A stretch of 22,392 nt of DNA from Chloroflexota bacterium (lineage in GTDB: Bacteria > Chloroflexota > Limnocylindria > Limnocylindrales > CSP1-4): assembly GCA_021789355.1 (NCBI GenBank), contig JAJYJR010000026.1, positions 1 to 22,392 on the forward strand, read 5' to 3'. The translations under genes and the position numbers were made by a program. The notes beneath the pieces were generated by a model. That model was not told the DNA's origin. It did not search any database and saw only the letters and a list, made by a program, of their open reading frames with translations. Of the stretch, positions 2,823-20,134 are shown in pieces (within the stretch, counting starts at the first letter, position 1; each line of letters starts with the position of its first letter).

Positions 2823-3089
2823 ATGAAGCGCACCACCATCAGCCTTCCAGACGAGCTCGCCGCGGCCCTGGAGCGGGAAGCGCAGCGCCGGCGGGTACCC
2901 GTGTCCCAGGTCGCGCGCGAGGCGATCGAAGCTCGACTTGGACGTGGCGCCGGCGGACGCCGTGAACTCCCGTTCGCGGCGCTCGGCCGCAGCGGCCACC
3001 GCTCGACGGCCCGCGACGTGGAGGCCATCCTCGATCAGGAGTGGGGCCCTGATCGGGAAGATGGACGACCGGCCGTTCCACGACCGTGA
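2823..3089 (+). CDS. vapB: VapB-type ribbon-helix-helix antitoxin
   Basis: An 88-aa protein. The N-terminus, MKRTTISLPDELAAALE followed by RRRVPVSQVAREAIEARL, is a ribbon-helix-helix DNA-binding domain: strand KRTTISLP, then two helices. The C-terminal half contains RSGHRSTARDVEAILDQEWG, the usual toxin-wrapping segment of VapB antitoxins. The toxin gene starts 21 bases downstream. By family, the antitoxin blocks the PIN nuclease and, together with it, represses its own promoter. The -10 sits directly before the start codon, so binding there would occlude the polymerase. Confidence 0.85.
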   Translation: MKRTTISLPDELAAALEREAQRRRVPVSQVAREAIEARLGRGAGGRRELPFAALGRSGHRSTARDVEAILDQEWGPDREDGRPAVPRP

Positions 3090-3110
3090 TCGTCGACGCA
3101 CGGCCAATCG

Positions 3111-3521
3111 ATGATCGCGATCGTTGACTCCGGCCCGCTGTACGCGGCAGTCGACGCCGACGACGACGACCACGCTCGCTGTCTGGAGGTGCTGCAGCGC
3201 GTCGATCTCGATCTGGTTGTCCCGGCGCTCGTCGTCGCCGAGGTCACGTATCTCGTCGGCCGGCGGCTGGGCCCGGACACCGAAGCCGCGTTCCTGCGCG
3301 GCCTGACCACCCTCGAGGTCGAGGCGCCGATCGTGGAGGACTGGCCACTCATCGCGGACCTCGTCGAGCGGTACGGAGACTTCCCGCTCGGCGGCACCGA
3401 TGCCTCCGTCGCCGTCCTGGCGGACCGCCTCGGCACCGACCTGATCGTGACGCTCGACCGGCGCCATTTCGGCGCGGTCCGCTCGTCCGCGGGGCGCTCG
3501 TTCCGATTACTCCCGGATTGA
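3111..3521 (+). CDS. vapC: VapC-type PIN-domain ribonuclease toxin
   Basis: A 136-aa protein of normal length for VapC. The PIN-domain acidic residues are in place: D6 (MIAIVDSGPL), E44 (VVAEVTYLV), D97 (GGTDASVAVLAD) and D116 (IVTLDRRHF). These bind Mg2+ and cut RNA; VapC toxins typically cleave tRNA or a 23S rRNA loop, but the target cannot be read from sequence. The ATG at 3111 has a weak Shine-Dalgarno sequence, so translation may depend on coupling to vapB. The active site looks intact. Confidence 0.88.
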   Translation: MIAIVDSGPLYAAVDADDDDHARCLEVLQRVDLDLVVPALVVAEVTYLVGRRLGPDTEAAFLRGLTTLEVEAPIVEDWPLIADLVERYGDFPLGGTDASVAVLADRLGTDLIVTLDRRHFGAVRSSAGRSFRLLPD

Positions 3522-3580: not shown

Positions 3581-3922
3581 TCAGTGGATGTGCGGCGCCT
3601 GCTCCAGGACCTCGTGCTCGCGCAGGAAGCGGACGCGGAACCCCTCCAGGTCCCCGACAGCGTAGGGCAGCAACCGCAGGCCGATGGTGGTGTTCATGAG
3701 GGGAATACCCAGCATCTCGCCCAGGATCAGCACGTCGAACGCGTCGCGATGCCGCTGCGCCTCGACCATCGACTCGTGGTAGGAGTCGTAGAGGGCGAGG
3801 CCCCACAGGACGTCACGCGCAGCGCCGATGGCTCGGCGCAGGCGTCCGCGATCCGGGCCGGCGTGCTCGCCAGCCGGTGCGGAGATCGTCCGGAGACGTA
3901 GCAGCCTCTGGCCCTGGCTCAT
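3581..3922 (-). CDS. Small LGxMLGIP-motif protein, last gene of the ArsA-pair operon
   Basis: A 113-aa protein of unrecognised family. The start at 3922 is chosen because its ATG overlaps the upstream stop (ATGA). The first 35 residues are basic and probably flexible. From about residue 36 it parallels the first gene of the operon (7167-7439): both have LGxMLGIP (here LGEMLGIPLM, about 74-83), then LRLLPYAV (about 88-95) and a closing RVxxxRE segment. Between RHRDAFDVLIL and PYAV lies a moderately hydrophobic stretch that could lie on a membrane or pack against a partner. Its position downstream of two ArsA-like ATPases suggests a partner or client of the pair. No catalytic motif is seen. Confidence 0.8.
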   Translation of the reverse strand: MSQGQRLLRLRTISAPAGEHAGPDRGRLRRAIGAARDVLWGLALYDSYHESMVEAQRHRDAFDVLILGEMLGIPLMNTTIGLRLLPYAVGDLEGFRVRFLREHEVLEQAPHIH

Positions 3923-4386
3923 ACGGCCGATCCTCGATGCGCCGAATTCAGCGCGGCCACGACCTCCCGGCGAATGGCGGGCACGTCGTCCAGCGGCGCA
4001 TCCAGCCGCCGGCCCTCGAGGAACACGCCCACGCCGGAGGCGGGCAGTCGGTGCCGGAGGGACAGCCAGAGCCCCCTGGGTGATGCGGTGCCGGTGGCGA
4101 CGACGGCGACGCGCCCACCGAACTCGCCCAGGATCGACGCGAACAGCTCGCCGGCCGCCTCGTGCACCGCCAGCACGTCCGGTGGGTAGTCGCGGAGCTG
4201 ATCCTGGTCGGCCGACGCGCCGGCCCGCGCCAGCTCGCCGGTCATGCACCGGCTGGCGCAGACGCTGAAGAGCTCGGGGAAGAGCCCGACCAGCTCGAGC
4301 CGGAGCGGACGGCCGGTGGTGCCCCGCGCGCCAACCGTGCCTGTGCCGGGGCGCCCGCGGTGGTCGCGGCCAATCGGTCCGTTCAT
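3919..4386 (-). CDS. Unknown protein with CxxxC pair, possibly thioredoxin-fold and ArsD-like
   Basis: A 155-aa protein whose ATG at 4386 overlaps the preceding stop (TGATG); its own stop overlaps the next start. The first 27 residues are Gly/Arg-rich. A hydrophobic strand, LRLELVGLFPELF (29-40), leads into C43-A-S-R-C47, followed by helices (QLRDYPPDVLAVHEAAGELFASILGEF), a strand (RVAVVATGT, 92-100), SPRGLWLSLRHRL, and VGVFLEGRRLD (119-129). The order strand, Cys pair, helices, strand, helix, strand with a Gly-Arg turn resembles thioredoxin-like proteins such as ArsD, the metallochaperone that serves ArsA. That fold call is inference: spacing differs from classic CxxC and I do not recognise the family. 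Redox or metal binding by C43/C47 is plausible. Confidence 0.75.
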   Translation of the reverse strand: MNGPIGRDHRGRPGTGTVGARGTTGRPLRLELVGLFPELFSVCASRCMTGELARAGASADQDQLRDYPPDVLAVHEAAGELFASILGEFGGRVAVVATGTASPRGLWLSLRHRLPASGVGVFLEGRRLDAPLDDVPAIRREVVAALNSAHRGSAV

Positions 4387-4949
4387 CAGTGGCACCCCAG
4401 GTGCTCGACCACCGGCACGAGCGCGTCGATCTCGGTCGCGCCGCACGCGCCCACGAGCTCCACCGACAAGACCCGGCCCGTGTGCTGGCAGGGGATCCAG
4501 GCGCGCGCCCAGTGCACCGTGCGCCTTGGCAGCAGGCCCCGGGTCCCTGACCCTCTCCACAGCCGGGCCTCGTGGCCGTTCAGCTCCACCATCCCGGCAT
4601 CCGCGGGGATCGACGGCGGCGGCGCCGGCCGCCGTCCGCTGCTCGCCCATGGGGCGATCCGCAGGTGCAGCTCGACGTGCAGGAGCGGCTCCGCTCGCCG
4701 GAGGATGTAGTCGGCGCTGCCGGCGGTCACCCAGCCGCTGCCGCCCCAGTCGCGGCTGCGGTCCACCTCCGGCGGCGACACGCCCGGCATCAGGCGCCAG
4801 GGCTCTGGTAGCTCCAGGTTCCCGAAGTTCGTGGGGCCCATCAGCAGGTTGGTCGCGCCGAGCACGACCTGCGTGGCGGGCACGGACGCCGGGGCCACGT
4901 CAGGTGCGTCGGCGTCCGGTGGACACCCATCGAGTGCGACGCCCGCCAT
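4386..4949 (-). CDS. Unknown 187-aa protein in the ArsA-pair operon
   Basis: The ATG at 4949 overlaps the stop of the second ATPase gene (TGATG), and its own stop overlaps the next start in the same way. I do not recognise the family. There is no signal peptide or membrane segment. Residues 1-25 are Ala/Pro/Asp-rich. The middle contains short aromatic segments (NFGNLELPEPWRL, SGWVTAGSADYILRR) and a beta-looking stretch LLHVELHLRI. The C-terminal part reads VELNGHEARLWRG, then VHWARAWIPCQHTGRVLSVELVGACG and DALVPVVEHLGCH. That pattern of strands ending in a helix is loosely like DUF4367-type domains. Three of its four cysteines (C154, C169, C186) fall in the last 35 residues, so metal binding or redox chemistry is conceivable. 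Confidence 0.78.
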   Translation of the reverse strand: MAGVALDGCPPDADAPDVAPASVPATQVVLGATNLLMGPTNFGNLELPEPWRLMPGVSPPEVDRSRDWGGSGWVTAGSADYILRRAEPLLHVELHLRIAPWASSGRRPAPPPSIPADAGMVELNGHEARLWRGSGTRGLLPRRTVHWARAWIPCQHTGRVLSVELVGACGATEIDALVPVVEHLGCH

Positions 4950-6133
4950 CACGCGCCCGCCCCCGCGATCGCCCGCCAGGAATCGGGGACGAAGCGAAGC
5001 AGGTCGTCCGTCACCTGCGCCACCGACGCCACCGAGTTCACCTCGTCGGGATACTGCGGAATGAACGCCCGAACGTGCTGCCCGAGGTCCGCGCGGATCT
5101 GATCGAGGTACCCCAGCTGCTCCTGGTATCGGTTGCGCACGTAGTCCGCGGCGTGGACGCCACCCGCGCCGTCCGCCGCCGCGCCGCCGACCACCCCCGC
5201 CGCCTGCGCCATTCCCCCTGCGCCCAGCAGCTCGGGCTGGAGCACCTGGTTCACGATCACCCCGCCCATCGGGATGTCGTACGCCTGGACCATCGTGATG
5301 AAGCGCTTGACCACGCTGATCGGCAGACTCAGCGGCAGCGTCACGAAGAAGAACGCTGTCTTCTCCGGGTCCGTCAGCAGCGTCTTCACCTGGGTGAAGC
5401 GCTCGTTCATGTCGAGCAGGTCGGCCATCAGCGGGTCCCGGGCGACCTCCTCCATCACCCGCTCCTTGCGGAACGAGAGCTGGACCCGCATGCCCAGCGC
5501 CTCCTTGCGCGAGTCGATCATGCGGGCCAGCCACAGGCCGTAGATCTTGGAGAGCCCGATCAGCCGGACCGCGTTGGCCACCGCGGCCGTGTCGAACACG
5601 ATCCGCTCGTACTCGCGCCCTTCCTTGAGCATGATCTCCATCATCTTGTCGAACATCGCCGATTCCTCGAACGCGGGGTTCGTCACCGCGATCTCGACGA
5701 ACGGCTTCGCGTCGACCGGGATGTCGGCCCACTTGAGGAACTCCCGCACGCGCGACCCGATGTTGTCGCGGTAGCGGGCGACGATCTCGTCGGCCTCGAC
5801 CTCGATCGCATCGAGGTTGGGCACCCCCTCGACCGGTTCGATCCGCCCGGAGGCCAGGCGCTTCTGCCCGAAGAGGCTTGCCAGCGAGTGGACGGGATTG
5901 AGCGACGCGACGAGGGTGTGGCGCCCTTCGCGCGCGGTGAGCGAGGCGATCGAGGCGGCCGCGACGGTCTTGCCCACGCCGCCCTTCCCGCCAGTGAAGA
6001 CGAACCGCAGGTCCGGGTGCGAGGCGAAGAACGACGCCAGGTCGGCCGCCATGTCCGGTCGGTCCGCCCCTCCCGTCGGCAGCCGGTCCCTCGGCGCATC
6101 GACGGGCCGGTCCGCCGGCCACCCGCCGGTCAT
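4949..6133 (-). CDS. ArsA/Get3-like ATPase with degenerate switch I
   Basis: A 394-aa SIMIBI-class P-loop protein of the ArsA/TRC40 family. The ATG at 6133 overlaps the preceding stop (ATGA). The deviant Walker A is intact at 49-56 (GKGGVGKT, signature Lys K50). The family segment STDPAHSLSD is SLNPVHSLAS here (77-86), so the catalytic aspartate, equivalent to yeast Get3 D57, is Asn79. The switch II segment is FDTAAVANAVRL (180-191), keeping Asp181 but lacking the TGH step. The adenine-side motif VNQV is present (about 294-297). An Ala/Gly-rich insert (about 304-327) occupies the region where Get3 carries its CxxC, and no such cysteines exist. It may bind ATP while hydrolysing poorly and act as the regulatory half of a heterodimer with the upstream ATPase. 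Confidence 0.9.
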   Translation of the reverse strand: MTGGWPADRPVDAPRDRLPTGGADRPDMAADLASFFASHPDLRFVFTGGKGGVGKTVAAASIASLTAREGRHTLVASLNPVHSLASLFGQKRLASGRIEPVEGVPNLDAIEVEADEIVARYRDNIGSRVREFLKWADIPVDAKPFVEIAVTNPAFEESAMFDKMMEIMLKEGREYERIVFDTAAVANAVRLIGLSKIYGLWLARMIDSRKEALGMRVQLSFRKERVMEEVARDPLMADLLDMNERFTQVKTLLTDPEKTAFFFVTLPLSLPISVVKRFITMVQAYDIPMGGVIVNQVLQPELLGAGGMAQAAGVVGGAAADGAGGVHAADYVRNRYQEQLGYLDQIRADLGQHVRAFIPQYPDEVNSVASVAQVTDDLLRFVPDSWRAIAGAGA

Positions 6134-7167
6134 CGTGCCGCCCCCGGCGCCGCGTCGAAGAGCCGGCGCACCGGATCGGGCGGGTCCATGAGCACCCGCG
6201 ACGCGGCCTCGATCATCTCCATGCCCTTCGGTTCCCGGGGAAACATCGGCATCGCCGCCACCACCTTGTCCCCGAACAGCCGGCGGATCTCGGCCAGGTT
6301 CCCTTGCTGCATCCCGATCCGGTTCCGCAAGAACTCCGGCAGGTCCGAATCGGTGAGCAGGTCGGCGGGATACACCTGGTTCACGATGAGGCCGCTCATC
6401 TCGATGTTCAGGTCGGAGAACATCCGCAGCGCCCGCCCCGTGTCCACGATCGCCATCTGCTCGGGGATCAGCACCATGAAGAACGCCGTCCGGCGGCGAT
6501 CCGTGATGAGGTCCGTGAACGTGGTGACCTGGCGCTTGATGTCCAGCAGCTCGTGGAGCACCGCGTCCTCGGTGCGCTCCTTGCCGCCCCCCTTGAGGGT
6601 GGCCGCCACCGCCTCGTACTCGGCCACCTTCTCGCGGGTCTCGGTGATCTTCTCGACCCACTTCGAAAGGATGTCGGCCATGGCCACCATGCGGACGCCG
6701 TGCCCGAAGGGGGGCATGTCGAAGATGTAGAGCTCGTACTCGCGCGCCGCGACCAGCTCCGCCATCGCGTCGTAGGTGGCCGACTCGTACATCGCCGGCT
6801 CGGCCGAGGTGGATTCGATGTACTCGTCGATCTCCTCCGGCACGCGGTCGAGCCCGTACATGTCCCGGATCTTGGCCCGCACCTGCTCCTGGTAATCGTG
6901 GACGCGACGGTCGGCGTCGATCTCGACCACGTGCAGGTTGGGGCGCAGCTCCACCACGCCCTTGCCGAAGATGTCCGCCTCGAAGATGTCGGACAGCGAG
7001 GCCTGTGGGTCGGTGGAGAAGCACAGCGTCTTCTTCCCCTCGACCTGGCTCATGTGCCAGGCCAGCGCGGCAGAAGACGTCGTCTTGCCCAGGCCCCCCT
7101 TTCCCGCCAGGATCACGATCTCCGGGTTCGAGCCCCGGGACCGGAAGTAGTGGCCCAGGCCCTGCAT
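6130..7167 (-). CDS. ArsA/Get3-like ATPase, catalytic residues intact
   Basis: A 345-aa protein. The ATG at 7167 overlaps the stop of the small first gene (TGATG). Deviant Walker A at 22-30 (GKGGLGKTT); STDPQASLSDIF at 51-62 keeps the catalytic Asp53; switch II FDMPPFGHGVRM (149-160) keeps Asp150 and the GH step; IVNQV lies at 261-265. No Get3-type CxxC and no arsenite-binding cysteines are seen, so neither arsenite pumping nor canonical tail-anchor insertion is indicated. Family members use nucleotide-driven opening and closing of a dimer to move a client. Paired ArsA-like proteins also occur in actinobacteria (Rv3679/Rv3680 in Mycobacterium tuberculosis). The long charged helical region at 170-225 lies where family members place their client-binding helices. 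Confidence 0.92.
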   Translation of the reverse strand: MQGLGHYFRSRGSNPEIVILAGKGGLGKTTSSAALAWHMSQVEGKKTLCFSTDPQASLSDIFEADIFGKGVVELRPNLHVVEIDADRRVHDYQEQVRAKIRDMYGLDRVPEEIDEYIESTSAEPAMYESATYDAMAELVAAREYELYIFDMPPFGHGVRMVAMADILSKWVEKITETREKVAEYEAVAATLKGGGKERTEDAVLHELLDIKRQVTTFTDLITDRRRTAFFMVLIPEQMAIVDTGRALRMFSDLNIEMSGLIVNQVYPADLLTDSDLPEFLRNRIGMQQGNLAEIRRLFGDKVVAAMPMFPREPKGMEMIEAASRVLMDPPDPVRRLFDAAPGAAR

Positions 7168-7439
7168 CAGTAGAGCGCGTCGGTGAAGTCGCGCTCGCGG
7201 AACACCCGCTGCTTCCACGACTTCACGTTGGGCACCGCGTACGGCAGCAGCCGCAGCGAGTAGTACGGCGGCAGGACGGGGATCCCGAGCATGTCTCCGA
7301 GCGTGATGAACATGAACAGGTGCTCCATGTACATCCGCGTGCGGAGCGCCGCCGTGACGTTGCCGTGGGACGCCATGCCGTACATCACGCCTTTGAGCAT
7401 GCCGCCGAATCCGAGCTTCTTGCGTTCCTCGTCTGGCAC
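7167..7439 (-). CDS. Small LGxMLGIP-motif protein, first gene of the ArsA-pair operon
   Basis: A 90-aa protein of unrecognised family. The GTG at 7439 is chosen over a longer frame because GAGGAGG lies five bases upstream of it, while upstream residues are low-complexity and overlap a hairpin. It opens with a charged PDEERKK segment, then a Met-rich, partly hydrophobic region (MLKGVMYGM; LRTRMYMEHLFMFI) and the signature LGDMLGIPVLPPYYSLRLLPYAV (48-70), ending in RVFRERDF. The signature and tail match the last gene of the operon, so they are paralogues. The Met/aromatic-rich helix could contact a membrane or fill the hydrophobic groove of an ArsA/Get3-type dimer. That role is inference. Confidence 0.82.
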   Translation of the reverse strand: MPDEERKKLGFGGMLKGVMYGMASHGNVTAALRTRMYMEHLFMFITLGDMLGIPVLPPYYSLRLLPYAVPNVKSWKQRVFRERDFTDALY

Positions 7440-7556: not shown

Positions 7557-9326
7557 TCACTTGCGGCCGGCACCTCCCGCCGCAGCGGAGGGACGCGGCT
7601 GTGCTGCCTGCGGCCGCTCGCCGCGCCTCATGCGGAAGTAAGCGCCGTAGCTCGACCAGGTCATGCGCAGACCGAAGTAGAGCAGCAGCAGGCCGAACAC
7701 CACGAAGATGCCGTTGAACGCCAGGGCGACCGAGTGCCATCCGGGCTGGGCAAACGTGGTCCCGGCCTGGGTGAGCGGCTTGTTGGTGGCCACCGCGTTC
7801 ACGAACACGATGATCTCCCAGACCAGCGCCGAGAGCGTGGTCACGATCATGAACGTGGCCGGGATGACGCTGGGCCGCGTGTCACGCCGCACCTTCGCAA
7901 GGTGGATGCTGACGATCATCAGCGCGAGCCCGGCCAGCAGCTGGTTGGAGGCCCCGAAGTAGAGCCAGAGGTTCCACCAGCTGCCGTTGATCGCGAACGC
8001 GACCGGGATCACAAGGCCGACCGCCGTCGCCACGTGCTTGTTGCCGAGGACGGCGAACTGGCCGTCACCGGCGAGCTCGGCCGACACCAGCCGCCAGAAG
8101 CGCGTGACGAGCGCCTGCACCGTCAGCGCGTAGACGACCAGCACCAGGCCAAAGAACGTCGCGAGGATCGCCTTGCCAAGGAACCCGAGCCACGGGTTGG
8201 CGAGGATCCCCGCGCCGCTCACCCAGGCTCCGACCGAGCTGAGGCCCGTGGCCTTGGACGAGAGCACCATGTAGGCGGCGAGCGAGGCCAGCGCGAGCAG
8301 CCCCTCGGTGAGCATCGCGCCGGCGCCAACGGGTCGGGCGTCGGTCTCAACGTCCACCTGTTTCGAGGTGGAGCTGCTGCCGACCAGCGAGTGCCAGCCG
8401 CTGATCGCTCCGCACGCGATCGCGACGAACAGGATCGGCCACAGCGGTCCCGGGTTGAGGCCAGGGTAGAACGTCTTGAACGCGGACTGCTGCAGGTGGA
8501 TCCCGGTGAACGGCGTGATCAGGGAGCTGACCAGGATTACCACGATCGCCGCGAAGGCGGGGAAGAACGCGACGTAGTTGATGGGCTGGATGAAGGTCGG
8601 CAGCGGCAGCACCGACCCCAGGTACAGGATCACGGCCGTCACGATCGCCCAGAAGAGGATCGTGTTGCCGCCGAGGAAGTTGGCGGCGACGTGAAGGACG
8701 CCAACGTCAGTCGCGACCCATATCGAGAGCGCCACCCCGACCAGCGAGAGCAGGGTCACCAGGCCGACGTTCCAGCGCAGCCGGTACAGGAGTCTCCCGG
8801 CGATCACCCCCGTCAGCAGGACCCCCATCGTCGCCCAGAAGACGCCGGGGAAGATGTTGAAGAAGGTCGCGATGAAGAAGATGAACGTCGCCGAGATGAT
8901 CAGCAGGTAGAGGATGATGAACCACAGGAGGGTGGTCCGGCCGCGGGCGCCCATGAAGTCGTAGGTGATGGGGCCGAACGAGCGTCCCTCGTTCCGCAGG
9001 CTCACCATGATCGCGCTGTAGTCCTGGAGCCAACCGATGAAGAAGTTGCCGATGATGATCCAGGCGAGCGCTGGAAGCCAGCCGTACTGGATGGCGATGA
9101 ACGGTCCCAGGATCGGCCCGAGCGCGGCGACGGACTTGAACTGGTAGCCCCAGAGCACGTACTTGCTGACGGGGAAGTACTCCACCCCGTCCATCAGCAT
9201 GTGGGCCGGGGTGGTCCTCCCGGCATCCGGGGCCCACACCGCCCGGTCGTACCAGCGCGAGTACCAGAAGTACGCCACGCCGTACGCGATCAGGGCGAGG
9301 ACGACGAAGAGTGCGGGCGTGTCCAA
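7557..9326 (-). CDS. cstA: CstA-family transporter (carbon starvation protein A)
   Basis: A 589-aa polytopic membrane protein with many hydrophobic segments. Family landmarks are GVEYFPVSKYVLWGYQF (about 47-63), the following LGPILGPFIAIQYG, ISGWHSLVGSSSTSKQ (about 310-325) with GAGAMLTEGLLAL after it, and FGASNQLLAGLAL near the C-terminus. CstA and its relative BtsT in E. coli take up peptides and pyruvate by cation-coupled transport; the substrate here is not determinable. The start is TTG 9326, supported by AAGGGAG about seven bases upstream and by a family-typical N-terminus (MDTPALFVVLALIAYGVAYF). The length is short of E. coli CstA (about 700 aa), as for many shorter homologues. The soluble C-terminus is Ala/Pro/Arg-rich. 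The ArsA-pair operon follows 117 bases downstream on the same strand. Confidence 0.93.
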   Translation of the reverse strand: MDTPALFVVLALIAYGVAYFWYSRWYDRAVWAPDAGRTTPAHMLMDGVEYFPVSKYVLWGYQFKSVAALGPILGPFIAIQYGWLPALAWIIIGNFFIGWLQDYSAIMVSLRNEGRSFGPITYDFMGARGRTTLLWFIILYLLIISATFIFFIATFFNIFPGVFWATMGVLLTGVIAGRLLYRLRWNVGLVTLLSLVGVALSIWVATDVGVLHVAANFLGGNTILFWAIVTAVILYLGSVLPLPTFIQPINYVAFFPAFAAIVVILVSSLITPFTGIHLQQSAFKTFYPGLNPGPLWPILFVAIACGAISGWHSLVGSSSTSKQVDVETDARPVGAGAMLTEGLLALASLAAYMVLSSKATGLSSVGAWVSGAGILANPWLGFLGKAILATFFGLVLVVYALTVQALVTRFWRLVSAELAGDGQFAVLGNKHVATAVGLVIPVAFAINGSWWNLWLYFGASNQLLAGLALMIVSIHLAKVRRDTRPSVIPATFMIVTTLSALVWEIIVFVNAVATNKPLTQAGTTFAQPGWHSVALAFNGIFVVFGLLLLYFGLRMTWSSYGAYFRMRRGERPQAAQPRPSAAAGGAGRK

Positions 9327-9654: not shown

Positions 9655-10299
9655 GTGGATAGCGCCACGCTGGTCGTCGTCATGCTGGCGGTGCTGCTGG
9701 TCGGCGGCTACGCGGTCGGCGGGGTGCTCAACGCGCGACGTATGCAGGCACTCGCAGTCGGACTCCGGGAGGCGCTCTCCGGCCCCGGTGGCCCCGCAAA
9801 GGTCCGGCGGCTCGGGCGCAGCATCGTCCGTGTCGAGGCCGAGCGTCCCGTGCGAGGCGCCGGCCGGGTCATCGCGACGGTGCTCCTGGCGCCCCGCGAG
9901 GCGCTGCTGGTGTGGGTGCTCTGGGCGTTGCAGGGACGTGGCGACCTGCTCGACATCAAGGCGGAACTCGACGGCCCACCGGTCGGGGCGGGGCTGCTGG
10001 CCGACCCGCGGCACCGGACCGGGCGTGCGGCGCTGCGCGCGGCCATGGCCGCGGGCGGGACGCGCGGCGATGCCGGGGCAGGCGGGCTCGCCGTTGCCGC
10101 CTATGACGCCGAGGGGATGACGGCCATGAGCCAGCTTGCCGCGGTGGCCGCGGGCGTGGGGGACGTGGTGCTGCTGGAGCTGAGGGGCGCCCAGCCGCGC
10201 CTGACGCTGCTGGTATCGCTCCGACACGCTCCGGCGTCGCTGCCATCGCTGAGAGCGGCGCTGCAGCGCCTGGTCGACCGGGTCAGCCGGGATGGGTGA
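9655..10299 (+). CDS. Membrane-anchored hypothetical protein, one N-terminal helix
   Basis: A 214-aa protein from GTG 9655, preceded by GGAAGGGG; the frame is open further upstream but codes for nothing protein-like there. Residues 5-24 (TLVVVMLAVLLVGGYAVGGV) form one transmembrane helix, followed by a basic NARRMQ segment, giving an N-out, C-in topology. The rest is soluble and Ala/Arg/Leu-rich with alternating strands and helices (SIVRVEAERP, VIATVLLAPREALLVWVLWALQG, VVLLELRG, LTLLVSLRHAP). The helix-rich tail is SLRAALQRLVDRVS. I do not recognise the family. A hairpin follows 18 bases past the stop, separating it from the next gene. Confidence 0.7.
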   Translation: MDSATLVVVMLAVLLVGGYAVGGVLNARRMQALAVGLREALSGPGGPAKVRRLGRSIVRVEAERPVRGAGRVIATVLLAPREALLVWVLWALQGRGDLLDIKAELDGPPVGAGLLADPRHRTGRAALRAAMAAGGTRGDAGAGGLAVAAYDAEGMTAMSQLAAVAAGVGDVVLLELRGAQPRLTLLVSLRHAPASLPSLRAALQRLVDRVSRDG

Positions 10300-13829: not shown

Positions 13830-13983
13830 GGTTCCCTCTCATAACGCCGGGCCGGGCCCGTCCGCAGGCCACCCCGGCGGCATGACGCGCTCGCGCCAGT
13901 GACCACGCTTGCGCCCGTGTTGATGCTCGTCCGCGGACACCGCGCGGCGAAGGTCCGGGCGGCCCCTCGTGGGCGTCCGATGG

Positions 13984-14424
13984 TCAGGTCGCCCCTGCCG
14001 CCCCATCCTCTGCCGGCTCGTCGCCCGCCAGGATCAGCCGGCGGAGATCCGCAAGCACGTCCACGATCGCCCACTGCCGCTCCGGGTCGAGCTCCTCGAC
14101 CAGGACCCGAAGCCATGCCATGGCCGCCCACTGAGCCTGGTCGAGCTGTCCCGTCCCGGTGGCGCTCAGGGTGAGCCGGATCCGCCGGCGCTCGGCCGGG
14201 TCGGTGCCCCGCACCACCAGGACCTGGCGGACGAGCCGGCTCACCAGCTCGGAGGCCGCGGGCACGGAGGTCCCGAGGTGATCCGCGATCTCGGACAGGC
14301 CGCTGCCCGGGTGGCGTCGGAGGTAGAGGAGCGCCCGGAACTGCGCAACGGACATGCCCGCCGGCCGACCCTCGCGCATGCGCCCCCGGTTCGCGAGCGT
14401 GCCCGTGGGACTCGCCGGTACCAT
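13984..14424 (-). CDS. MarR-family transcriptional regulator
   Basis: A 146-aa protein. The winged helix is clear: GMSVAQFRALLYLRRHPGS (23-41), helix-turn-helix LSEIADHLGTSVPAASELVSRLVRQ (43-67), wing TDPAERRRIRLTLSATG (74-90), then C-terminal dimerisation helices. A stop lies three codons before ATG 14424, so it cannot be longer in this frame. The N-terminal dimerisation helix is shorter than usual for MarR proteins. It is divergent from an ABC exporter 153 bases away, a common arrangement in which MarR represses the exporter and itself until a ligand binds. A nested inverted repeat in the gap is a candidate operator. Confidence 0.88.
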   Translation of the reverse strand: MVPASPTGTLANRGRMREGRPAGMSVAQFRALLYLRRHPGSGLSEIADHLGTSVPAASELVSRLVRQVLVVRGTDPAERRRIRLTLSATGTGQLDQAQWAAMAWLRVLVEELDPERQWAIVDVLADLRRLILAGDEPAEDGAAGAT

Positions 14425-14490
14425 CTGGGCCTACCTGCGCCTGGAGGAACTGAGGACGGTCAGCCATGCCCGGATCGTCTGGCCCGGCAA

Positions 14491-14530
14491 CCTGAGCTTT
14501 GCCGTGGGTCTCACGGCGCTCCTCGTCAGG
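14491..14530. promoter_or_regulatory. Nested inverted repeat in the marR/ABC divergent gap, candidate MarR operator
   Basis: GCCGTG (14501-14506) and CACGGC (14512-14517) flank a 5-nt centre. Outside them, CCTGA (14491-14495) and TCAGG (14526-14530) form a second, imperfectly centred pair. Dyad symmetry of this size between a MarR gene and its divergent target fits a dimer-binding operator. The promoters themselves are not obvious in this G+C-rich gap. Confidence 0.4.
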
Positions 14531-14577
14531 ATCGCCTGCGGGTCCATGGGCCGCAGCGGCGGGCGCGACACGTGAGC

Positions 14578-16509
14578 ATGCGGCGGGGGGCCGGGGGCGC
14601 CGGGGGCGCGACGGGATGGGGGCTGATGCGCTCGTTCCGCCGGGACGAGTCGGTCACTTCCCAGCGGCTGTCCGCGGGCATCCTCCGGCGCATCGCGCGT
14701 TTCGCTGAGCCCTACCGGCGGATGCTGGCCGTGTTCCTCGGGCTGATCGTGCTGGACGCGCTGATGAGCGCGGCGAACCCGCTCATCTACCGGGCCATCA
14801 TCGACGATGGCATCCTGCCCCACCACGCGGGCGTCGTGGTCGACCTGGCGCTCCTGCTCGCCGGCCTCGCGCTGGCCGACGCGGCCCTGTCCCTGTGGCA
14901 GCGCTGGATCTCCGCGCGGGTCGGCGAGGGCCTCATCTTCGACATGCGCACGAAGGTGTTCGCGCACTTCCAGCGCATGCCCATCGCGTTCTTCTCGAGA
15001 ACCCAGACCGGTGCGCTGGTCAGCCGGCTCAACAACGACGTGCTGGACGCGCAGCAGGCGTTCACCGACACGTTCTCATCGGTGGTCGGCAACGTCATCG
15101 GCGTGGTGATCACCATCGCGGCCATGCTGCTGCTGTCCTGGCAGATCACCCTGGTGGCGCTCGCGCTGCTGCCGCTCATTCTCCTGCCGGCTCGCTGGGT
15201 GGGGCGGCGGATCCAGGCGATCACCCGGGAGAGCTACAACCTCAACGCGAAGATGATCTCGATGATGACCGAGCGCTTCAACGTCGCAGGGGCGCTCCTG
15301 GTCAAGCTGTTCGGCGAACCGCTGCGCGAGATCCGGAGCTTCGAGGAGAAGGCGGGCCGGGTGCGCGACATCGGGATCACCCAGGCCATGTACACGCGGG
15401 TCTTCATGGCCGCGATCCTGCTCACCGCCGCGCTCGCCACCGCGCTGGTGTACGGCTGGGGCGGCGTGCTGGCGGCCGGCGGCGCGCTGCAGGTCGGCAC
15501 GGTGGTCGCGCTGACCGCCTACCTGAACCGGCTGTACGCCCCCTTGACGGCCCTCTCCAACGTGCAGGTCGACATCATGACCGCGCTGGTCAGCTTCGAC
15601 CGCGTCTTCGAGGTGCTCGACCTGCAGCCCATGGTCGCCGAGAAACCGGACGCCGCGGCGATCCCGGACGGCCCGGCCACCATCGAGTTCGACCACGTCG
15701 ACTTCAGCTACCCGAGGGCGGAGGAGGTGTCGCTGGCCTCGCTCGAGTCGGTCGCGGTCCTCGACCAGGCGCCGTCCCAGCAGGTGCTATTCGACGTGTC
15801 GTTCACCGCCCGGCCGGGCCAGCTCGTGGCCCTGGTCGGCCCCTCGGGCGCCGGCAAGACCACCATCAGCCACCTCGTTCCGCGGCTCTACGACGTGCGC
15901 TCGGGCGCCATCCGCATCAACGGCGTCGACGTGCGGGAGGCCACCCTGGACTCCATCCACCGCGCCGTGGGCGTGGTCACACAGGACGCACACCTCTTCC
16001 ACGACACGATCCGGGCGAACCTGCTGTACGCGAAGCCCGACGCCTCCGACGAGCAACTCTTCGAGGCGCTGCGGGCGGCGCAGATCCTCTCACTGGTGGA
16101 GTCGCTGCCGGCCGGCATGGACACCGTGGTGGGCGATCGCGGGTACCGACTGTCCGGCGGCGAGAAGCAGCGCATCGCGATCGCGCGGCTGCTGCTCAAG
16201 GCGCCGGACATCGTGGTGCTCGACGAGGCTACGGCCCATCTCGACTCCGAGTCGGAACTGGCGGTCCAGCTTGCGCTCCGGACCGCGCTCGCCGGGCGCA
16301 CCTCGGTCGTGATCGCGCACCGCCTGTCGACCGTACGTAACGCCGACCTGATCCTGACGGTCGCCGGCGGCCGGATCGTCGAACGGGGCACGCACGCAGC
16401 GCTGCTCGCGGCGGACGGCCTCTACGCCGAGCTGTACCGGACGCAGTTCGCGCGCCAGGCGGAGACGGACACGCTCGACAGCCCCGAGCCGATGGCTGCC
16501 GCGGGCTGA
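14578..16509 (+). CDS. ABC exporter half-transporter (fused membrane and ATPase domains)
   Basis: A 643-aa protein from ATG 14578. A GTG two codons earlier and ATG 14626 (627 aa) are also possible; no start has a strong ribosome site. The membrane domain runs from about 45 to 340 with six helices. The nucleotide-binding domain follows: Walker A GPSGAGKTT (421-429), Q-loop Q469, signature LSGGEKQR (525-532), Walker B IVVLDEATAHLD (545-556) with catalytic Glu550, and H-loop His581 (IAHRLST). All ATPase residues are intact, so a homodimer would have two competent sites. An extra segment (about 381-402) sits between the first strands of the ATPase domain. The substrate is unknown; lipids or drugs are typical. 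The divergent MarR gene suggests ligand-induced expression. Confidence 0.93.
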   Translation: MRRGAGGAGGATGWGLMRSFRRDESVTSQRLSAGILRRIARFAEPYRRMLAVFLGLIVLDALMSAANPLIYRAIIDDGILPHHAGVVVDLALLLAGLALADAALSLWQRWISARVGEGLIFDMRTKVFAHFQRMPIAFFSRTQTGALVSRLNNDVLDAQQAFTDTFSSVVGNVIGVVITIAAMLLLSWQITLVALALLPLILLPARWVGRRIQAITRESYNLNAKMISMMTERFNVAGALLVKLFGEPLREIRSFEEKAGRVRDIGITQAMYTRVFMAAILLTAALATALVYGWGGVLAAGGALQVGTVVALTAYLNRLYAPLTALSNVQVDIMTALVSFDRVFEVLDLQPMVAEKPDAAAIPDGPATIEFDHVDFSYPRAEEVSLASLESVAVLDQAPSQQVLFDVSFTARPGQLVALVGPSGAGKTTISHLVPRLYDVRSGAIRINGVDVREATLDSIHRAVGVVTQDAHLFHDTIRANLLYAKPDASDEQLFEALRAAQILSLVESLPAGMDTVVGDRGYRLSGGEKQRIAIARLLLKAPDIVVLDEATAHLDSESELAVQLALRTALAGRTSVVIAHRLSTVRNADLILTVAGGRIVERGTHAALLAADGLYAELYRTQFARQAETDTLDSPEPMAAAG

Positions 16510-16592: not shown

Positions 16593-17477
16593 ATGACGAG
16601 CCAGGGATCCTCCGCCGGCGGCGGCGACGCGCCGCCGCGCGAGGGGGCGCCGGGTGGCGGGCCCATGCCGTCCGCGGAGCTGCTCTCGGCGTCGCGCCGG
16701 CAGCTGCTGCTGGAGTCGGCTGGGATCGCCATCTCCTCCGGCGGGTTCGGGCTGGTGTACGGGCTCGCGGCCAGGAACGCCGGGTTCAGCCCGGTCGAGG
16801 CGATCGCGATGAGCGTCCTGGTCTTCGCGGGGGCCTCCCAGTTCGCCGCAGTCGGGCTCGTCACGGGCGGGCTCGCGTGGCCGGGGATCGTGCTGCTCAC
16901 GGCGCTGCTGAACGCGCGCCACCTCCTGTACTCCGCCGCGCTTGCGCCGTGGTTCAGGAACCGGTCCAAGACACGCCGTGCCTCCATGGCGTACGTCCTC
17001 ACGGACGAGTCGTTCGCGCTCTCGATCGCGCACTTCCAGCGTCTGGGGCACCTGGACGAGCCGGGCTACTGGATCGGCGCGATCACCTCGACCTACATCC
17101 CGTGGAACGTCATGACGGCGGTGGGAGCCCTGCTGGGGGGCCAGATCGCGGATCCGAGCCGGCTCGGGCTGGACGTGGTCTTCCCGGCGGCGATGGCGGG
17201 GCTGGCCGTTGGGCTCGTCACCGCCCGCCGCGAGCTCGTGGCGGCGATCGTGGGTGCCGGCGTGGCGGTGCCGCTCGGCCTGGTCATCGGGCCGGCCGCG
17301 GGGATCGTGGCCGGAGGGCTGCTGGGCCCGCTGGCCGGCATGGCCGTCCCGCCGATACGCCGAGGGTCGCGCTGGCCGGCCGGCTCTGAAGCGCCGCTCG
17401 AGGCGTCCCGCGAGGCTCAGTTGCTGGCCGACGCGGAGGCCGCGGTCGGGCCGGACGACGAGGCCGGCCTGCCATGA
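16593..17477 (+). CDS. azlC: AzlC-family branched-chain amino acid exporter, large subunit
   Basis: A 294-aa membrane protein. The family core begins near residue 40 with AGIAISSGGFGLVYGLAARNAGFSPVEAIAMS, then VFAGASQFAAVGLV, LNARHLLYSAALAPWF and YVLTDESFAL, all typical of AzlC. AzlC and AzlD together export branched-chain or other hydrophobic amino acids. The N-terminal 24 residues are Gly/Pro-rich, and ATG 16665 (MPSAELLS...) is a plausible shorter start. A weak -10, TACAGT at 16578-16583, lies nine bases before ATG 16593, which would make the message nearly leaderless. The C-terminal 40 residues are hydrophilic and unusual in length. The stop overlaps the azlD start (ATGA). Confidence 0.92.
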   Translation: MTSQGSSAGGGDAPPREGAPGGGPMPSAELLSASRRQLLLESAGIAISSGGFGLVYGLAARNAGFSPVEAIAMSVLVFAGASQFAAVGLVTGGLAWPGIVLLTALLNARHLLYSAALAPWFRNRSKTRRASMAYVLTDESFALSIAHFQRLGHLDEPGYWIGAITSTYIPWNVMTAVGALLGGQIADPSRLGLDVVFPAAMAGLAVGLVTARRELVAAIVGAGVAVPLGLVIGPAAGIVAGGLLGPLAGMAVPPIRRGSRWPAGSEAPLEASREAQLLADAEAAVGPDDEAGLP

Positions 17478-17803
17478 GCCTCGGGCTGGTGTTCCTCGCA
17501 GCCCTGATGGGCGCCGTGACGTACCCCTCGAGGGCGGTTCCGCTGCTGGCGCCCGGGATCGAACGCCTGCCCTCCGGGGTCCGGCTGTATCTTCGGCTGG
17601 TGGGGCCCGCGGTGCTCGCGGCCCTGGCCGCGGCCAACGTGATGGTGGTGTCGGTCGCGGGCCGGCCGTCGTTTCACGTGGGCGTCGAATGGTTCGCGGT
17701 CGCCGCGTCGATCGCGCTCGTCGCGTGGCGGCGGAACCTGTTCCTGGGGCTGCTGATCGGGGTGGCGCTGGCGGCGGCATCACGGGCGACCGGCCTGGCG
17801 TGA
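17474..17803 (+). CDS. azlD: AzlD-family branched-chain amino acid exporter, small subunit
   Basis: A 109-aa protein with about four hydrophobic helices; the family segment AVTYPSRAVPLL (about 14-25) corresponds to the usual T-Y-x-x-R-x-x-P-L of AzlD. Its ATG lies inside the azlC stop (ATGA), so translation is coupled and gives matched subunit amounts. It ends 22 bases before a convergent gene. Confidence 0.9.
   Translation: MSLGLVFLAALMGAVTYPSRAVPLLAPGIERLPSGVRLYLRLVGPAVLAALAAANVMVVSVAGRPSFHVGVEWFAVAASIALVAWRRNLFLGLLIGVALAAASRATGLA

Positions 17804-18562: not shown

Positions 18563-18566
<4 letters not shown>
17826..18566 (-). CDS. Hypothetical 246-aa protein coupled to a c-di-GMP protein
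   Basis: The GTG at 18566 is chosen because it overlaps the upstream stop (GTGA). The N-terminal 60 residues are flexible (Ala/Gly/Pro/Glu-rich) and end in a PEPVPEPAPDRPE linker. The folded part starts near EFAGYAEDCRVFGFLRLDADRLTDTLNAH (64-92). Then comes VLVDAVAIGLEDGRAIEVGEMTVYRDELLAV, and a domain with VHGYVHSLPGADPILNVRRRKPMVPITEAWIEY and GTLIVNRELIDWIALSDDEEVRL. The pattern 'xVxGxVH-x-x-P-G-x-D-P ... R-R-x-x-F/M-x-P-[VI]-T' recalls an uncharacterised DUF, but I cannot name it with confidence. No signal peptide or membrane helix is seen. Overlap with a GGDEF/HD-GYP gene suggests an effector or partner in c-di-GMP signalling. Confidence 0.78.

Positions 18567-20134
<1,568 letters not shown>

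Follow-up and report, generated by a model that had tools for sequence, protein, structure and literature searches.

What do two different ArsA/Get3-type ATPases do when they are encoded side by side in an operon with four other proteins? The question is raised by positions 3581 to 7439 of a 22,392-nucleotide stretch of Chloroflexota DNA (contig JAJYJR010000026.1, assembly GCA_021789355.1), the whole of which we call the window. A first-pass annotation, made from the letters and the open reading frames alone, had proposed a client-handling or assembly machine built on an asymmetric ATPase pair. Here we show that the six genes (in gene order g1 or X1, g2 or A, g3 or B, g4, g5, and g6 or X2) are part of a conserved unit centered on a CstA-family membrane transporter and made up of CstY-like, CstA, X1, A, B, g4, g5, and X2, which occurs in Archaea and several bacterial phyla. 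This module is the two-ATPase form of the CstA-CstX-ArsA(-CstY) association proposed in 2010 (Castillo & Saier 2010, PMC2963123).

The six genes travel with CstA across phyla

Contigs were scanned with X1 as the sole query, which recovered 68 loci in records from Chloroflexi, Bacillota/Clostridiales, Acidobacteriaceae, and many archaeal groups. Subunit A was present in 66/68 loci, directly after X1 in 66, and subunit B in 62/68, directly after A in 61; cstA was found in 61/68 (the loci without it are L027, L032, L039, L044, L047, L051, and L064), g4 in 51/68, and X2 in 48/68, where a score of 95 bits against the window's g1 divides X1 from X2 and the absences include contigs ending inside the module. 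Since no gene other than X1 served as query, the co-occurrence of the partner genes is not a selection effect. The module comes in at least nine truly different arrangements among the 68 loci (they yield 44 gene strings, many of which are truncation or split-gene versions of others). Examples are cstA-X1-A-B-g4-g5-X2, g4-X2-cstA-X1-A-B, and g4-cstA-X2-X1-A-B; others are X2-X1-A-B with cstA and g4 reversed behind, and X1-A-B-X2-g4-cstA. The scan bears out the conserved multigene unit that had been claimed from the window alone, and the neighborhood check suggested along with that claim came out in its favor: the non-ATPase genes do travel with ArsA pairs across distant genomes.

The same association was seen when whole genomes were counted. 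Within one archaeal phylum, CstA was found in 14/29 genomes and X1 in exactly those 14 (Fisher p = 1.3e-8, a value that, like the next one, overstates independence because genomes share ancestry). Each of the 14 module genomes has two X-type matches, and the ArsA pair adjoins X1 in 14/14; among them, G022 has its CstA and X1 on separate contigs. The g4 gene was present in 13/14 module genomes versus 0/9 module-free archaeal genomes (9 of 15 searched). Among 201 Chloroflexota genomes, 24 have both CstA and X1, 4 have CstA alone, 1 has X1 alone, and 172 have neither (p = 7e-26). Two of the CstA-only genomes, G135 and G216, carry CstAs outside the module clade and no module gene within 10 kb; in G151 the contig stops beside cstA, and in G245 cstA lies in two frames, 454 bases from the contig end. 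The X1 match of the X1-only genome, G048, has an internal stop.

In the window itself, the six open frames all lie on the minus strand (7439-3581), and every one of the five junctions overlaps (in gene order TGATG, ATGA, TGATG, TGATG, and ATGA), just as they had first been listed. Stop/start overlaps are common in compact GC-rich genomes, and the overlaps are therefore weak evidence when taken alone. Across the three nearest relatives, the A|B junction is ATGA in 3/3, and the B|g4 and g4|g5 junctions are TGATG in L001 and L002, L003 being the exception; only the window has the X1|A overlap, and the g5|X2 junction of L001 and L002 could be a candidate GTGA overlap. A junction count over 65 loci was uninformative, because any TGA stop after A, G, or T scores. 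The junctions are thus kept in part among the nearest relatives, and we dropped the overlaps as proof of a fixed stoichiometry. Co-occurrence over phyla in several arrangements is a signal beyond chance and stronger than the overlaps. A scan for promoters and terminators gave no signal exceeding that of shuffled sequences.

A CstA-family carrier and a CstY-like gene precede the six genes

The cstA gene (7557 to 9326, minus strand; 589 amino acids [aa] from a TTG start) lies directly upstream of the six genes on the same strand, running from 9326 to 7557 and ending 117 bp before X1, and its product scored 331.7 bits against PF02554 in a Pfam scan. The first-pass annotation had seen no ArsB-like pump nearby; the absence of any pump-like gene is not supported, given a CstA-family carrier in that position and in 61/68 loci. 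In a tree, the 32 module CstA rows fall into a single clade (support 100/99). The residue core common to at least 6 of 7 other CstAs, that of Escherichia coli among the seven, is kept, and transport is therefore plausible. A sequence search found no solved relative of CstA.

Divergent from cstA is a gene on the plus strand (9655 to 10299; 214 aa, GTG start) that was first recognized through a profile of recurrent neighbors in other loci. A profile built on 48 relatives at other loci, with the window and its nearest kin excluded, matched its product at E 1.4e-27. By profile the family is present in 46/68 loci, with the window additional. In an all-against-all comparison of the other open reading frames at the loci, it was the sole recurrent family (37 loci by linkage, window not included); the families that came after it occurred in at most 6 loci, and no conserved metabolic neighbor emerged. 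The protein has one predicted N-terminal hydrophobic helix (hydropathy peak 2.48, residues 6-25) and matches nothing in Pfam, nor any NCBIfam family above its cut-off. We call it CstY-like solely from its size, this helix, and its context.

The two ATPases are split at a catalytic residue

Subunit A (6130 to 7167, minus strand; 345 aa) and subunit B (4949 to 6133, minus strand; 394 aa) are both ArsA/Get3-type proteins, with 224 and 151 bits against PF02374 (cut-off 24.3) and 220 and 157.7 bits against TIGR00345 (ArsA/GET3/TRC40), both above the cut-off of 135. We compared the A and B sequences that hit with more than 200 bits over more than 250 profile positions (67/75 loci each, 65 in common). 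The switch I position is Asp in 67/67 A and Asn in 67/67 B, in sequences that are related to one another and do not amount to 67 independent events; in the window these residues are Asp53 of A and Asn79 of B. The P-loop and the signature lysine, which presumably acts across the dimer, are kept in 67/67 A and 67/67 B. The switch II Gly-His of A, intact in the window, is kept in 67/67, while in B, where the window has Ala-Asn, Gly is replaced by Ala in 67/67 and His by Asn in 65, with His in the remaining 2. In an alignment to two solved relatives, the SLNPVHSL of B falls on their STDPAHSL. Beyond the module, the switch I Asp is kept in 8/8 ArsA-family proteins of the same archaeal phylum and in 10/10 of the single ATPases read beside a cory-type protein (described below).

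Asp57 of yeast Get3, which we take to be the Asp of the switch I motif, provides a point of reference. According to the available part of the report, Get3 with this catalytic residue altered (D57N) has ATP bound and does not hydrolyze it (PMC12506534). The Asp/Asn split between A and B therefore predicts a heterodimer with one hydrolytic site, and B, by its sequence a diverged member of the family, is probably not a hydrolase.

A tree was built from 30 A and 30 B rows, to which 2 single ATPases and 8 outgroup rows were added; long branches leave its root unsure. In it, A is monophyletic and B is monophyletic (100/99 each), and A and B group together (99/91). Over the 30 loci, the two subtrees branch in largely matching order. 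A and B are old paralogues, and the asymmetry of the pair, as first proposed from the window, is upheld by the residue split and the tree alike. Because each subunit is monophyletic, the branching is parallel, and the module CstAs form one clade, it is most likely that a single duplication came before the spread through Archaea and Bacteria, and that one copy lost the catalytic residue.

No column of the 67 B sequences exceeds 50% Cys, and A has one such column (51/67), just before switch I. GET3 has a zinc CxxC dimer motif; A and B have no conserved Cys pair and so lack it. The best solved relatives of the two subunits include archaeal and algal ArsA or arsenical pump-driving ATPase entries, along with eukaryotic Get3. 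A defense system was also considered and rejected, as PADLOC returned only P-loop-level matches of A and B to PDC-M28B (~17 bits).

The four smaller proteins

X1 (7167 to 7439, minus strand; 90 aa from a GTG start with GAGGAGG upstream) and X2 (3581 to 3922, minus strand; 113 aa) are paralogues, their sequence sets aligning in HHalign at 99.9%, as had been suspected of the small proteins. X1 has 2027 homologues at E<=1e-3, with a mean column identity of 70% over 21 bacterial and archaeal rows, and its conserved segment is GDMLGIPVLPPYYSLRLLPY. Against NF041419 (cory-CC-star protein), X1 and X2 scored 34.8 and 24.2 bits, both below the cut-off of 80. Neither has a conserved Cys, and the CC tail of cory-CC-star is absent; we read the C-terminal Cys-Cys as the hallmark of that family from its name and from 9/10 tails. 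As judged from these comparisons, X1 and X2 are distant relatives of cory-CC-star, not members. In both size and context they resemble the CstX of Castillo & Saier 2010, and they were assigned to it from those two features only. Both carry a short hydrophobic stretch, not at the C-terminal end, and no clear transmembrane helix was found in either (Kyte-Doolittle maxima of 1.41 and 1.54 over 19 residues). Homology to YbdD was rejected: the motifs look alike by eye, but the HHalign probability against YbdD/YjiX (PF04328; 76 of 120 listed homologues plus E. coli YbdD) was 0.4-1.4%. A protein database places X1 relatives under PF25952, and the Pfam copy that we used gave X1 no match; the two Pfam versions probably differ.

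The g4 product (4386 to 4949, minus strand; 187 aa) has a predicted fold that groups with PsbP/Mog1/DcrB/EagT6-SciW proteins, to which the fold search gave a match. The solved structures of two of these fold relatives include portions of secreted effectors; for SciW, the portion is a transmembrane domain. Residues His126, Cys154, Cys186, and His187 are invariant over 39 rows from 38/51 loci, and the protein ends in Cys-His.

For g5 (3919 to 4386, minus strand; 155 aa), the alignment, an AlphaFold2 model (pLDDT 77, pTM 0.67), and Foldseek/VIA rows that are mostly thioredoxin-like, none of them strong individually, point to what is probably a thioredoxin-like fold. Cys43 is present in at least 90% of 42 rows; a second Cys is variable, with a spacing of CxxxC in the window and CxxC in some relatives. 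A single-sequence search with g5 returned 27 proteins, and the more distant relatives came from profiles run on the loci. This is the Cys-containing partner foreseen in the first-pass annotation, which had also found all four non-ATPase proteins nameless. The latter description stands for g4 and g5, which have no Pfam or NCBIfam model over cut-off, and fails for g1 and g6, which are CstX-like and match cory-CC-star below its cut-off.

Simpler relatives have a single ATPase

Plasmids of Pseudochrobactrum and Cytobacillus carry one annotated cluster each of a carbon starvation protein A, a cory-CC-star protein, and one ArsA family ATPase. In the Cytobacillus cluster (L122), a 95-aa hypothetical protein (5338-5625, plus strand) intervenes between the cstA and cory-CC-star genes; by eye, the latter half of this protein resembles the C-terminal half of g5, but the g5 profile gave no match at E 0.01. 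No X1 relative was found on plasmids. CstA is present in 139 plasmid records, and of the 5 examined, 2 have cory-CC-star and one ArsA, 2 have neither among their annotated genes, and 1 is unannotated.

In the phylum of genome G002, 20/299 genomes match NF041419, 1 of them over cut-off. We read the ten best-scoring loci of these 20 genomes together with two plasmid regions. One ATPase stood beside the small protein in 10/12 loci, with Asp in all 10; the small protein ends in CC in 9/10, and cstA lies within the stretch read in 4/10. Six Bacillota loci (L142, L143, L145, L147, L149, and L150) have the cory-type gene and one ArsA with no cstA in the stretch read, and CstA was found elsewhere or beside in 9/9 Bacillota genomes of this type tested. 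If cory-CC-star is CstX, the six loci contradict the statement, in the available text of the 2010 paper, that CstX does not occur without CstA (PMC2963123). The other two of the 12 loci are L144, truncated by a contig end, and L146, a Bacillota locus with a complete two-ATPase module (X2, CstY-like, g5, g4, B with Asn, A with Asp, X1, and cstA).

When the single-ATPase stretches were searched by profile, neither g4 nor g5 nor a second small protein was found. In place of CC tails, the two-ATPase form has g4 and g5; that functions were exchanged would be speculation.

A proposed one-site ATPase pair acting on CstA

From this strong gene association and the A/B residue split we infer a heterodimer, its docking, its coupling to transport, and the roles of g4, g5, and CstY. 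The reading that we favor, at even odds (a probability of about 0.5), is an ATP-gated or ATP-energized CstA complex in which a one-site A/B heterodimer is docked through X1/X2. A and B would bind two ATPs as a heterodimer and hydrolyze one, at A, while the B site would keep its ATP as a structural clasp. Via X1/X2 the heterodimer would dock onto CstA from the cytoplasmic side, and by opening and closing in cycles it would gate or energize transport, as ArsA does for ArsB. The probably thioredoxin-like, Cys-containing g5 and the Cys/His protein g4 may serve as accessory subunits, redox- or metal-dependent, with a part in regulating the complex or in passing on a ligand, and CstY may be a membrane-anchored accessory.

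Several observations weigh against this model. ATP need not energize CstA transport, because E. coli CstA has no adjoining ArsA. One Asn does not prove B dead, and the kinship of the sequences limits what a uniform split can say. The g5 gene is present in 29/68 X1 loci, and the six Bacillota loci above have the ATPase and its small partner with no cstA at hand. Among open-licence papers, we found no experiment on the two-ATPase module and no test of ArsA energizing CstA.

The main rival, which we consider possible though rather doubtful, is that the Get3-like ATPase pair inserts or assembles CstA, CstY, and/or CstX and has no role in the transport cycle. The eukaryotic Get3 entries among the best solved relatives of the two ATPases are consistent with such an assembly machine, as are the secreted-effector parts in two solved fold relatives of g4 and the hydrophobic stretch of the CstX-like proteins. 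That stretch is not C-terminal, however, X1 and X2 have no clear transmembrane helix, and a dedicated ATPase assembly factor for a single carrier would in our judgment be unusual. The client handling proposed in the first-pass annotation likewise remains a rival reading.

The next rival, which we hold to be improbable, turns the ATPases, g5, and g4 into an energy- or redox-sensing switch on CstA uptake, with hydrolysis as a timer and no energetic coupling. The probable thioredoxin-like fold and Cys43 of g5 and the invariant His/Cys residues of g4 would suit such a switch, and one dead site suits a switch as well as a pump; but the frequency of g5 given above, as read with contig ends included, argues against it, and, CstY-like aside, no regulator gene recurs beside the module (families in at most 6 loci). 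We reject an ars-type arsenic resistance operon, in agreement with the first-pass annotation: ArsA-family ATPases are present, but the ArsA-type cysteines are not conserved (no Cys column in B and one in A), a Pfam scan of the 20 window genes found no arsR, arsD, arsB, or acr3 family, and the available text of the 2010 survey places arsenic resistance genes and cst genes in separate operons (PMC2963123).

Returning to the ATP-gated or ATP-energized CstA complex, its boldest version is one that we put forward tentatively, as less likely true than false: an ancient ATP-driven carrier in which a one-site Get3/ArsA heterodimer, fixed in Archaea and Bacteria, powers CstA via paired CstX adaptors, with dedicated thioredoxin-like and Cys/His subunits. 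If this is true, the system would be a pump of the ArsA type that moves a substrate other than arsenic, with one of its ATPases turned into a permanent ATP clasp. The fixed catalytic/noncatalytic split also makes the 2010 energizing hypothesis directly testable via the single predicted catalytic Asp of A and would, if it holds, provide a natural one-site Get3/ArsA dimer for studying cross-talk between the two ATP sites of the family. In addition, a context would be provided for three families (g4, g5, and CstY-like) that repeatedly accompany CstA in many archaea and bacteria yet to be cultivated.

Other genes of the window

Immediately beyond the operon's end, the plus strand, opposite to that of the operon, encodes a ribbon-helix-helix protein and then a PIN-domain protein (2823-3521), which look like a type II toxin-antitoxin pair. 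Farther along lie an ABC exporter with membrane and ATPase domains in one frame (13969-16509, plus; the true start is later than the first codon of the frame), a MarR-family regulator beside it on the other strand (13984-14424, minus), at 16593-17803 (plus) an AzlC-family protein (PF03591) followed by a small overlapping membrane protein gene that is probably AzlD, and a signaling protein with GGDEF and HD domains (18563-20134, minus).

Relation to known systems

The ArsA/ArsB pump is alike in that an ArsA-family ATPase works together with a carrier from a different family and in having two ATPase halves, which in ArsA are fused; the ArsB carrier is not known to be related to CstA. It differs in that both halves of two-domain ArsA1 (5zme) keep the Asp, and its arsenite cysteines are absent from A and B. 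The mycobacterial BagA/BagB proteins (Rv3679-Rv3680) likewise bring two different ArsA-family proteins together in one solved entry (6bs3), but A and B score at most 47.9 bits against family cut-offs of 400. In E. coli, CstA imports pyruvate with YbdD, which is needed for uptake, according to the part of the report at hand (PMC5847655). That system shares with the module a CstA homologue and a small accessory protein encoded beside it; it differs in that cstA adjoins ybdD with no ATPase gene beside, and YbdD shows no similarity to X1/X2 at the profile level. The sets of CstA, cory-CC-star, and a single ArsA likewise have CstA, a related small protein, and an ArsA-family ATPase in one cluster; their one ATPase keeps the Asp (10/10), in contrast to the A/B pair here.

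The closest relatives are the CstA-CstX-ArsA(-CstY) clusters. The available text of the 2010 study lists 26 associations of CstA with ArsA, 24 of them with CstX, a CstY of ~210 aa with a single transmembrane segment in five archaea, adjacent ArsA pairs in two organisms (Par and Sth), and two CstX paralogues in two organisms; it proposes that ArsA energizes CstA with CstX as a linker, perhaps as homodimers, and records that the Asp of an SxD motif is replaceable by Asn, noting this no further (PMC2963123). It also mentions a Thermococcus kodakarensis CstA cluster that includes two CstX and a CstY. Among the open-licence papers searched, no other has CstX together with CstA and none has 'cory-CC-star'; of those naming CstA and ArsA, as judged from the listing, Castillo & Saier alone treat the link. 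The window and 61/68 loci agree with these clusters in gene content and size, with CstA, a CstX of ~90 aa, and a single-domain ArsA. The first-pass annotation had allowed that the set might prove to be a described system, and in part it is, as CstA-CstX-ArsA-CstY was proposed in 2010; the fixed catalytic/noncatalytic split with its one-site asymmetry, the age of that split, g4, and g5 are not in the available 2010 account. The transporter-ATPase link was thus proposed in 2010, while the one-site ATPase pair and several of its partner genes appear to be new.

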